Position numbers and translations under genes: made by a program. Below are positions 9,765 through 12,936 of a stretch of 36,153 nucleotides of DNA, one piece after another (position 1 is the first letter of the stretch; every line of letters starts with the position of its first letter). The notes below the pieces were generated by a model. The model saw only the letters and a list, made by a program, of their open reading frames with translations. It was not told where the DNA came from and made no database searches. Source of the DNA: a virus; the IMG/VR virus record IMGVR_UViG_3300046460_000055, positions 1 to 36,153 of that record, one strand, 5' to 3'.

Positions 9765-10136
9765 ATGATTGAAAAAACCCCTTCGGGCAACCTGCCCGCT
9801 GAACTTGCCGAATTGCTGCCGTGGGCCTGGGTCGCATTCGTTTCCATGCTGGGCGGCGTGGCGTCCTTCCTGCAGAAGATGAAGACCGGGCATGTGCGCG
9901 CCTGGAACTTCACCGAGTTTGTCGGCGAGATCACCGCCGCCGGCCTGACCGGCATCATCACGGCGAACCTGTGCGACTCGATGGGCTCTTCGGCACCGCT
10001 GAAGTACGCCCTGGTCGGGATCTCGTCGCACATGGGCAGCAGGGCCTTGTTCAAGCTGGAGGCGATGTTCACGGCGAAGTTCAACCTGCCGGCCGACGTG
10101 ACCCAGCCGGCGAAGGGGGAAGACCATGCCGCCTAG
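9765..10136 (+). CDS. Holin, LydA/superfamily III type
   Basis: A 123-residue membrane protein that should open the inner membrane so the endolysin can reach the peptidoglycan. The hydrophobic segments are about 16-36 (ELLPWAWVAFVSMLGGVASF), about 50-68 (FVGEITAAGLTGIITANLC) and about 75-86 (SSAPLKYALVGI). The last is followed by SSHMGSRALFKLE, the conserved G-x-x-x-H-M-G-x-R-A ending of LydA-type phage holins (PF16083). It directly precedes, and overlaps by 11 bases, the endolysin gene, which supports the call. A 47-base gap separates it from the tailspike gene; no clear promoter is visible there. Confidence 0.82.
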   Translation: MIEKTPSGNLPAELAELLPWAWVAFVSMLGGVASFLQKMKTGHVRAWNFTEFVGEITAAGLTGIITANLCDSMGSSAPLKYALVGISSHMGSRALFKLEAMFTAKFNLPADVTQPAKGEDHAA

Positions 10137-10602
10137 CGCCTTCCTTGCCATGATGGTCGGGCCCGCGCAGGCCTGCCAGCGCGCCACTGGGATCCCCGCT
10201 TCCTTCACCCTGGCGCAGGCGGCGCTGGAATCCGGCTGGGGCGCGCGCTGCCCCGGTAACAACCTGTTCGGCATCAAGGCGGATAAGGCATGGAAGGGCC
10301 CGACCGTCGACGTGCCGACGCATGAAGTCGTGAATGGCCAGCGCATCGCCATCACCGACAAGTTCCGCGCCTATCCCAGCTGGGCCGCCTGCATGTTGGA
10401 CCACGCCGCGTTCTTCAAGGCGAACCCGCGGTACCGGGATTGCTTCAAGCAGACCACTGGCGAAGGATGGGCGCGCGCCGTGGCGGCCGCCGGCTATGCG
10501 ACCGATCCGGACTACGCCAGGCTGCTGATCGACGTCATGGGGAACCGCCAGGGCGGCCGGAACATGGCGCAGTACGACGTGCCCGCGCAGGTGCCGGCAT
10601 GA
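10126..10602 (+). CDS. Endolysin, glucosaminidase domain
   Basis: A 158-residue single-domain lysin. IPASFTLAQAALESGWGAR (residues 23-41) is the catalytic-site signature of the FlgJ/LytG-type N-acetylglucosaminidases (PF01832), with Glu35 as the likely acid catalyst. NNLFGIKAD follows, as in this family. The enzyme cleaves the glycan strands of peptidoglycan. No signal peptide or transmembrane segment is seen at the N-terminus, so release through the upstream holin is expected. There is no separate cell-wall-binding domain, as is usual for phages of Gram-negative hosts. Its stop overlaps the Rz start (ATGA at 10599-10602). Confidence 0.88.
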   Translation: MPPSAFLAMMVGPAQACQRATGIPASFTLAQAALESGWGARCPGNNLFGIKADKAWKGPTVDVPTHEVVNGQRIAITDKFRAYPSWAACMLDHAAFFKANPRYRDCFKQTTGEGWARAVAAAGYATDPDYARLLIDVMGNRQGGRNMAQYDVPAQVPA

Positions 10603-11105
10603 CGGCCGTGCAGCGGCTTCTGGCCGCCGTGATCCTGGTGCTGGTCCTGGCGCTGGGTCTGATCTTCTGGGCCCACCACTACGGCGCCGAGCAGCGCGCC
10701 GCCGGCTATGCCGCGGCGGTGGCCGCCGGCAAAGAGCAACACGACCGCGACACCGCGGCCGCCCGTAAAACCGAGTCGGACCTGCGCGCGCAGCTGCGCG
10801 GCAAGGACGCCGACGCCAAACGAAAGGAAGATGAATATGCAACGAACCTGCAAAATGCTCAGCATCGCGTGCGTGCTGGCGCTGACAGCCTGCGCTGCCC
10901 AACCGCCGGCCCCGTACAGCCCAGCGCCGCGCCCGACGATCGACCCGCTGCCGGCGGATCTGACCCTGAAGCCGAGCGACCGCGCATTGTGCCAGAGGTT
11001 GCTTCTGATCTTCTCGGCGTCGCCGCAGACCTTGCAAGAGTCGTGCGGCAGTACGATCGGATCACTGAACGGTTCGAAGAATGCCGGGCCCTGAACGCGA
11101 AGTAG
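10599..11105 (+). CDS. Rz: i-spanin, Rz-like
   Basis: A 168-residue protein with an N-terminal membrane anchor (about residues 6-24, LLAAVILVLVLALGLIFWA), then a long charged helical periplasmic region (YAAAVAAGKEQHDRDTAAAR onwards) typical of Rz. Rz pairs with the lipoprotein Rz1 to fuse inner and outer membranes in the last step of lysis. ATG 10599 overlaps the endolysin stop by 4 bases. The open frame extends upstream but lies inside the endolysin gene there, so the anchor-proximal ATG is the start. The Rz1 gene is wholly nested within this gene in another frame. Confidence 0.85.
   Translation: MTAVQRLLAAVILVLVLALGLIFWAHHYGAEQRAAGYAAAVAAGKEQHDRDTAAARKTESDLRAQLRGKDADAKRKEDEYATNLQNAQHRVRAGADSLRCPTAGPVQPSAAPDDRPAAGGSDPEAERPRIVPEVASDLLGVAADLARVVRQYDRITERFEECRALNAK
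10837..11094 (+). CDS. Rz1: o-spanin lipoprotein, Rz1-like, nested inside Rz
   Basis: An 85-residue lipoprotein encoded in a different frame within Rz. The signal sequence MLSIACVLALTAC ends in a lipobox (LTAC), so the mature protein starts at the lipidated Cys. It continues AAQPPAPYSPAPRP, the Pro-rich stretch typical of Rz1. ATG 10837 was chosen because AGGAAG lies 6 bases upstream; an in-frame ATG at 10831 is too close to that site. Full embedding of Rz1 in Rz is the lambda arrangement. Two further Cys pairs near the C-terminus could form disulfides. Confidence 0.85.
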   Translation: MQRTCKMLSIACVLALTACAAQPPAPYSPAPRPTIDPLPADLTLKPSDRALCQRLLLIFSASPQTLQESCGSTIGSLNGSKNAGP

Positions 11106-11478: not shown

Positions 11479-12015
11479 TCAGGCGATGATTTGCCAATCC
11501 TCGGCCAGGGCGTCCGATTGCGACGGCGCCCAGCCCATCAGAATCGCGCCCTGTGCCGTCTTCAGGATGAAGTAAGGCAGCACCGTCGCGCCGCCGCCGT
11601 TCTCTTCGGCGTGTGCGCGTGCGTGTTCGTTCCAGAACTGCGACACGGCCAGGTAGTCGTTCCCCTTGCCCAGCGCGACCCACTGGCCGGCACCGTTCCA
11701 GCCGGCGCGTGCCACCTTCGCGCCGCCCTTCATCGCTTCGACTGCCAGACCGAAGTTCATGGCGTCGCACGGACGATAGGCCTTGTCGAACGCTTCGGCC
11801 GGCGTCCAGGTCACATAGCCTTCATGGGTCGGCAGATTCGGCTTGCCGCCGTCCAGGTATTCGACCAGGTAGCCGGGTTCCTCGGCCTGTTCATCGGGCG
11901 GCATGGTCCAGCCGCGGAACGCATTGTAGGCGCCGCGCGTCATCGCCTCGGCGCGGATCAACTTGGTGCCGATATAGCGGGCGACGGTCTGGGTCGGGAT
12001 GGTGGTTTTCTGCAT
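11479..12015 (-). CDS. Tad2-like anti-Thoeris protein with an extra N-terminal domain
   Basis: A 178-residue, two-part protein. Residues about 86-178 match the Thoeris anti-defence 2 domain (formerly DUF2829, PF11195): MNFGLAVEAMKGGAKVARAG, WNG at 106-108, LPYFILKTAQGAILMGW (146-162), and SQSDALAEDWQII at the end. Tad2 proteins bind the cyclic ADP-ribose isomers made by Thoeris and block its signal. Residues about 12-82 form a separate conserved phage domain (GTKLIRAEAMTRGAYNAFRG, PGYLVEYLDGG, GYVTWTPAEAFDKAYR) of unknown function. Ribosome site AAGGAAG precedes the start. It is the last gene of the leftward early operon. The domain call is from motif recognition; anti-Thoeris activity in this phage is inferred. 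Confidence 0.82.
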   Translation of the reverse strand: MQKTTIPTQTVARYIGTKLIRAEAMTRGAYNAFRGWTMPPDEQAEEPGYLVEYLDGGKPNLPTHEGYVTWTPAEAFDKAYRPCDAMNFGLAVEAMKGGAKVARAGWNGAGQWVALGKGNDYLAVSQFWNEHARAHAEENGGGATVLPYFILKTAQGAILMGWAPSQSDALAEDWQIIA

Positions 12016-12031
12016 GGTCTTCCTTCAGGGT

Positions 12032-12053
12032 GCGCGCCTCTTGCCCGGCGCGC
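12032..12053. repeat. GC-rich hairpin upstream of the Tad2-like gene
   Basis: GCGCGCC (12032-12038) and GGCGCGC (12047-12053) form a perfect 7-bp stem with an 8-base loop in the 48-base gap between two leftward genes. It lacks a T tract, so it is not a typical terminator. Its distance from the ribosome site of the Tad2-like gene (about 10 bases) would allow an effect on translation or on mRNA ends. Confidence 0.6.
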
Positions 12054-12063
12054 TTGGGCGTGT

Positions 12064-12936
12064 TTATGCGGTGGCCAGGTCGGCCAGGTTCGGCAGCGGG
12101 CCCATGTAGGTCAAACCCTCTTTCACGCAATGGCGAATGAAGGCGTCGTCGTGCAGTTCGCCGGGCAGCATGTTGATCCCGGTGCCGACCGTGCCGCCCT
12201 TCCAGGAACCTTTACGCGGTCCGACTTCGGCCGAGTAGTGGATATCCAGGCTTCGGCGGATCATCGGGCGATAGAACAGGCTCAGCCAGCTGCACCACTT
12301 TTCCCCGCGCTTCCATTCGCGCTCTTCGATATGCGTGGTCGCGATGATCTCGGCGCCGTCGTAGTCGACGCACCGGAACGCGACCTTAGGACAGGCCTTT
12401 TCCGCTTCCCAGCGCGCATCCGACCACTGGCCAGCAAGGCGGCGCGCGGCTTCATCGCGGCCCTGCGGTCGGTCTTTTTCCAGCTGGTTCCAGAAGTGGG
12501 CGCCGGCCGTGTCGTACAGGCTGAAGCGGACATGGCGCCATTGCGTCCAGGGTAGATGGGTGCACCAGCTTTTCGTGGTCACGCTGTCGTGGGTTTGAGG
12601 GCCCAGAAAAACCTGCAGGAAGCCTTCGGTGCCGCACTGGATCCCGAATTCGCGGCTGTGCACGTCCCAATATCCGCTTCCAGGTTTGCCCCATTCATAG
12701 CGCGACGTGTCGACCCATTTGCGGTATTTGTCGATCAGCGGCGGCAGTTCCAGCAGCAGCGTGCGTGCGCCCAGATAGATCCGCAGGTGGCACGAATCCT
12801 CATCATCGCCGGAATCCAGCACGATCCCATAATATCGTTCCCCGCTGCCGCGATTGCTCCATGTGAACGGCCCGAAGTGGCGATCATGGCCACTCCACCG
12901 GCGCCGCTTCCCCTTCAGCCATTTCTTGATATTCAT
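12064..12936 (-). CDS. Conserved phage protein of unknown function, 290 residues
   Basis: A basic N-terminus (MNIKKWLKGKRRRW) leads into HDRHFGPFTWSNRGSGERYY and LRIYLGARTLLLELPPLID (about residues 50-70), a pattern I know from uncharacterised proteins of several Gram-negative phages that carry matching early operons. The protein is Trp-rich and mixed alpha/beta. No catalytic motif, transmembrane segment or signal peptide is seen. ATG 12936 overlaps the stop of the upstream 53-residue gene by 4 bases (ATGA), so the two are translationally coupled. No function is assigned. Confidence 0.72.
   Translation of the reverse strand: MNIKKWLKGKRRRWSGHDRHFGPFTWSNRGSGERYYGIVLDSGDDEDSCHLRIYLGARTLLLELPPLIDKYRKWVDTSRYEWGKPGSGYWDVHSREFGIQCGTEGFLQVFLGPQTHDSVTTKSWCTHLPWTQWRHVRFSLYDTAGAHFWNQLEKDRPQGRDEAARRLAGQWSDARWEAEKACPKVAFRCVDYDGAEIIATTHIEEREWKRGEKWCSWLSLFYRPMIRRSLDIHYSAEVGPRKGSWKGGTVGTGINMLPGELHDDAFIRHCVKEGLTYMGPLPNLADLATA

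Follow-up and report, generated by a model that had tools for sequence, protein, structure and literature searches.

Introduction

Tad2, Tad1, and Acb4 are sponge proteins that were discovered separately and are structurally unrelated. In Tad2, the gcADPR pockets are formed by the beta1-beta2, beta3-beta4, and beta4-alpha3 loops together with strand beta4 and helix alpha3, and the binding of cyclic dinucleotides has been tied to a long beta2-beta5 insert (PMC12043709, a review). Acb4, the family of which is PF13876 ("Phage_gp49_66" in Pfam), is a tetrameric 3'3'-cGAMP sponge, the head of which is unrelated to Tad2, and some of its homologues bear extra extensions according to the authors (PMC11722364). 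The pockets lie between protomers in the tetramers of Tad2 (PMC12043709) and Acb4 (PMC11722364) and likewise in the hexamers of Tad1, which differs from Tad2 in both head and oligomer. Acb3 (PF25187) is a separate counter-defence protein, without the additional domain described below.

The protein described here combines a Tad2-like C-terminal half with an N-terminal domain (N-domain). The C-terminal half shares its family, predicted fold, and loop motifs with the known Tad2 proteins (SPO1 gp34.65, SptTad2, HgmTad2/AcrIIA7, and ModTad2), the matched solved chains of which are mostly about 88–104 aa long, with one AcrIIA7 chain of 158 aa, whereas in the fusion protein a conserved domain of 70 residues is added before the Tad2 domain. 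The closest entries are PHROG 872, in which the two domains are arranged alike and which aligns almost end to end (7.6e-58), and phage N4 gp49, a DUF2829 protein of the same architecture that is 38.6% identical. Both are annotated as being of unknown function, with no role given for the N-domain, and the two-domain gene was already known as a hypothetical one, as were Tad2, Acb4, Tad1, and Acb3 as such. What is new is the company kept by the N-domain, an unnamed module common to several sponge families.

Results

The window, which is the whole stretch of DNA analysed, is a virus record of 36,153 bases (IMGVR_UViG_3300046460_000055) that carries P22-like portal and coat genes, a RecT-type recombinase, and a PD-(D/E)XK nuclease. 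The coordinates of the fusion gene in the first-pass annotation were exact, and the gene lies on the minus strand. The features are as follows.

11479 to 12015, minus strand: coding sequence of the N-domain and Tad2 fusion, 178 aa (PHROG 872), with the ATG at 12015 and the stop ending at 11479
12019 to 12026, minus strand: Shine-Dalgarno-like sequence GAAGGAAG, just upstream of the ATG of the fusion gene, recognised by sequence
11767 to 11976, minus strand: N-domain, residues 14–83, predicted (AF2 pLDDT 96) and delimited by profile matches and fusions
11485 to 11760, minus strand: Tad2-like domain, residues 86–177 (PF11195; Z 13.6 to 8wjd)
11692 to 11703, minus strand: GWNG motif, residues 105–108, putative beta1-beta2 loop of the Tad2 pocket (conservation; PMC12043709)
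11512 to 11532, minus strand: WAPSQSD motif, residues 162–168, putative beta4-alpha3 loop and helix alpha3 of the Tad2 pocket (conservation; PMC12043709)
12064 to 12936, minus strand: Acb3-family CBASS inhibitor gene (PF25187), 290 aa, by profile match

The fusion gene is the last of a minus-strand early block, in agreement with the earlier view that the early operon ends with it, and converges on a cassette of holin, endolysin, and Rz genes on the plus strand (9765–11105). A long plus-strand ORF (11491–12555) was dismissed as a spurious frame antisense to the real genes, and PADLOC and NCBIfam gave no matches. Compared with three close relatives, dN/dS was about 0.16–0.37 for the N half and 0.08–0.18 for the C half, and both halves are under purifying selection. 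The gene adjoining it upstream, on the same strand and separated by 48 bases, belongs to the Acb3 family, being matched by PF25187 over residues 13–274 of 290 (225.6 bits against a cutoff of 27, E 1.1e-66), so that two counter-defence genes together form the last module of the early operon. At three related loci (L001, L002, and L025), the nearby genes for an exonuclease, a 320-aa protein, and lysis are retained, but no Acb3 is present at the same site, which suggests that acb3 was acquired at an accessory site. Near 168 distinct genes for the N-domain–Tad2 architecture (N-Tad2), we found 37 acb4 genes, all of them on the same strand and 28 directly adjacent. PF13876 was found neither in the fusion protein by Pfam nor in the window by a local profile, and Tad1 was not found in the window.

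The C-terminal part had been reported to carry the Tad2 pattern, and this was confirmed by sequence profile, predicted fold, and retained loop motifs. Residues 86–177 matched the Tad2-like family PF11195 in Pfam (79.1 bits against a cutoff of 25, E 3.5e-22), and a phmmer search of the PDB returned seven solved Tad2/AcrIIA7 sequences, including SptTad2, ModTad2, HgmTad2/AcrIIA7, and SPO1 Tad2, with E-values from 6e-9 to 1.5e-13. In the full-length AlphaFold2 model (mean pLDDT 92.2, alignment of 63 sequences), the C half superimposed on SptTad2 (8wjd) with a Z of 13.6 and 2.1 A over 96 residues, followed by nine further Tad2/AcrIIA7 entries at Z of at least 11.0, with the next unrelated entry at Z 5.2; residues 86–178 are therefore not unlike Tad2 in predicted fold. 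The ligand-pocket residues were also retained on alignment, as GWNG and WxPSQxDxxAxDW are both kept, and the pocket-loop regions of the model carry AGWNG (104–108) and GWAPSQSD (161–168), the assignment of motifs to loops being taken from the published description (PMC12043709) and mapped onto the predicted model. G105, W106, G108, W162, D168, and W174 are invariant in the 63 sequences, and N107, S165, and D173 are at least 90% conserved. The length of the beta2-beta5 insert is intermediate, and the structure most similar to the model is cGG-bound SptTad2 (8wjd), so that a dinucleotide ligand is possible and the C half, as modelled, may bind a cyclic dinucleotide.

Residues 1–84 searched alone matched no Pfam family but matched phrog_872, phrog_9467, and phrog_32732. 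When predicted alone, the N-domain gave a pLDDT of 96.0 and a pTM of 0.81 (47 sequences) with the order beta-alpha-beta-beta-alpha, and it is confidently predicted to be a separate folded and conserved domain. Its sequence had no match in the PDB, and Foldseek with the predicted structure gave nothing below E 2 there. The weak list of structural neighbours consists chiefly of chromodomains, all with Z of at most 3.0 and the best over 46–53 residues; this likeness, at Z of about 3, is consistent with a chromodomain but too weak for the domain to be called one. The N-domain as a degenerate second copy of Tad2 was discarded, with an hhalign probability of 0.1 between the halves and no convincing fold match, as was the N-domain as a general bacterial domain, with the one match among 398 genomes of one phylum being the seed genome itself. 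Of the 33 positions that do not vary across an alignment of 13 sequences, 19 fall in the N-domain, in which many aromatic and charged residues are invariant, and the mean pairwise identity was 57% for the N-part vs 37% for the Tad2 part. A literature search, in which subscription papers and bioRxiv were thinly covered, found no paper on the N-domain, an earlier description of which is possible, and none on the WDGH domain or Acb3.

The architecture of N-domain plus Tad2 is widespread and is no peculiarity of the phage studied here. A tblastn search with the full fusion matched 293 phage records, in 89 of which the match spanned 80% or more of the protein; at least 566 relatives were confirmed in IMG/VR by a profile-guided scan, and phage N4 gp49 carries both domains. 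One protein of 297 aa (L006:2641-3531) has a diverged N-domain-like start, about 120 other residues, and a terminal Tad2 domain.

The first-pass annotation had also associated the N-terminal domain with phage proteins lacking Tad2, and many such proteins were found, with the isolated domain recovering PHROG matches and fusions to Tad2, Tad1, Acb4, and crAss001_48. In a partner-neutral scan of 84,980 species genomes, for which the N-domain alone served as the query, 55 loci were obtained, comprising 35 N-Tad2, 13 N-crAss001_48, one N-Tad2-crAss001_48, three with Acb4 in either order, one fused to Tad1, and two without a recognised partner; 53 of the 55 proteins hence carry Tad2, Acb4, Tad1, or crAss001_48. 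Among all fetched loci, the distinct proteins were 164 N-Tad2, 42 N-domain without a recognised partner, 28 N-crAss001_48, 17 N-Tad1, and 14 N-Acb4, with small numbers of Acb4-N, Acb4-N-crAss001_48, N-Tad2-crAss001_48, and N-Acb4-Tad2; these tallies are from local profiles, with representatives verified with Pfam (PF13876 and PF21825), and the counts do not represent independent events because the Tad2 fusions, which dominate the sample, are related by descent. The N-domain is N-terminal or internal within the fusions. For the N-Tad1 representative, the Tad1 head matched solved Tad1 with E 1.6e-16 by phmmer and scored 26.0 bits with the Pfam hairpin model (cutoff 27). Since PF13876 is the Acb4 family, the N-domain is common to three structurally unrelated sponge families (Tad2, Acb4, and Tad1), and the fusions to Tad1, Acb4, and crAss001_48 favour the N-domain as a counter-defence module.

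Several of these fusions deserve description in their own right. A family of Acinetobacter phages and prophages (L129 and L236–L266) joins the N-domain to a Tad1 head, and a single protein of 284 aa (L217 and L222, 2498-3349, plus strand) contains the N-domain, Acb4, and Tad2, thus combining two sponge heads. N-Tad2-crAss001_48 occurs in L022 and L153, and Acb4-N-crAss001_48 in L203 and L223. crAss001_48 (PF21825), the second most frequent partner, is joined to the N-domain in L107, L110, L116, L123, L130, L132, L154, and others, and can by association be considered a candidate sponge or counter-defence module; its identity with the Acb2/Tad1 hairpin was rejected (hhalign probability of about 0.1 and no PDB match). 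Fusions to a WDGH domain (PF25311; L278:2501-3043) and, weakly, to a PRA-PH-like pyrophosphohydrolase domain (L214:2489-3193; 23.6 bits against a cutoff of 21.3) were also observed, each in a single protein. In the prototype crAssphage, Carjivirus communis, a short form of the N-domain lies in KP06_gp41 (BK010471.1, 27513-27680), the annotation of which as a member of the PF13876 (Acb4) family makes it a likely N-Acb4 fusion of an abundant gut phage.

We also compared the two parts of N-Tad2 proteins in pairs. Among 107 pairs with N-parts more than 88% identical, the Tad2 parts were less than 50% identical in 45, which are pairs and not 45 events because the compared proteins share ancestry, and, conversely, wherever the Tad2 parts were more than 88% identical (40 pairs), identity of the N-part never fell below 60%. 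Between Escherichia phage Kapi1 (L012) and L098, 237 of the first 240 bases of the gene agree, the Tad2 parts are only about 30% identical, and the DNA is then 95.7% identical at the gene end and beyond. Such near-identical N-domains with unrelated Tad2 heads and conserved flanks indicate that heads were exchanged, and replacement of the Tad2 head beneath a constant N-domain is what best explains the sequences.

The proteins in which the N-domain stands without a recognised partner include divergent forms of 55–116 aa (L283–L362). Local profiles found a sponge gene near none of 40 free-standing N-domains, and when 50 of their neighbours were searched with Pfam, a single Acb2/Tad1 hairpin protein turned up. 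Given that free-standing forms exist and that sponge genes were so scarce beside them in these searches, the N-domain may serve a general role that is not tied to signals.

Discussion

The fusion protein would be a two-module sponge for nucleotide signals, in which the immune signal is trapped by Tad2, with the N-domain as a shared companion, a reading to which we assign a probability of about 0.8. We infer that the Tad2 domain would most likely assemble into a Tad2-type oligomer and sequester a TIR-made nucleotide signal, either a cyclic ADP-ribose isomer or His-ADPR, and possibly cyclic dinucleotides also, so that the defence effector would stay off and an anti-Thoeris activity would result. 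The N-domain of about 70 residues would be a companion module on the unrelated heads of Tad2, Tad1, and Acb4 as well as on crAss001_48, constant while the heads change, and is most likely a binding module itself, either a second head or an adapter to a conserved partner, and not a linker.

That the N-domain binds signals as a second head, with the protein trapping two kinds of immune nucleotide, has somewhat less than an even chance in our estimation. The proteins with mixed heads (N-Acb4-Tad2 in L217, N-Tad2-crAss001_48, and Acb4-N-crAss001_48) point to it, as do the facts that the characterised partners are sponges themselves and that the domain has many invariant aromatic and charged residues and exists free-standing. 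However, an arms race would be expected to make sponge heads variable, yet the N-part is the better conserved of the two, and its fold matches no solved nucleotide binder. Its constancy while heads are swapped, its placement at the N-terminus or internally, and its very weak likeness to chromodomains, which are peptide-binding modules, are instead consistent with an adapter or targeting module that recognises some conserved macromolecule of the host or the phage and positions or stabilises the sponge; we entertain this tentatively, as no partner is known, the chromodomain likeness is below a trustworthy level, and sponges are expected to act while freely diffusing.

A domain that mainly aids the oligomerisation or folding of its head would suit all the heads, because the pockets of each form between protomers, but the symmetries of the heads differ, the characterised Tad2, Acb4, and Tad1 work without it, and it also exists without a head, which makes this role unlikely. 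It is far less probable still that the fusion protein is a Cas9 inhibitor of the AcrIIA7 type and no sponge: the AcrIIA7 chain in the PDB (8kbi) is identical in sequence to HgmTad2 (8kbj) and anti-CRISPR annotations are attached to relatives in phages Huey and Louie, but the protein retains both the Tad2 fold and the motifs of the signal pocket, and what accompanies it, by fusion or as a neighbour, is a signal sponge or a CBASS inhibitor. The bolder proposal that the N-domain itself binds nucleotide signals and forms the hub of a modular toolkit of sponges is in our view less likely than not.

The presence of one small domain on Tad2, Tad1, and Acb4, constant under the exchange of heads, suggests that these proteins are parts of one modular system. 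The N-domain offers a sequence handle for finding more such proteins, with PF21825 (crAss001_48) and the free-standing N-domain as immediate candidates, and a role is suggested for N4 gp49 and for the gene of the prototype crAssphage that combines the N-domain with PF13876. If the N-domain binds signals, crAss001_48, the WDGH domain, and the single-domain forms of 65–80 aa would be unrecognised counter-defence proteins, which would include genes of the crAss-like phages of the gut.
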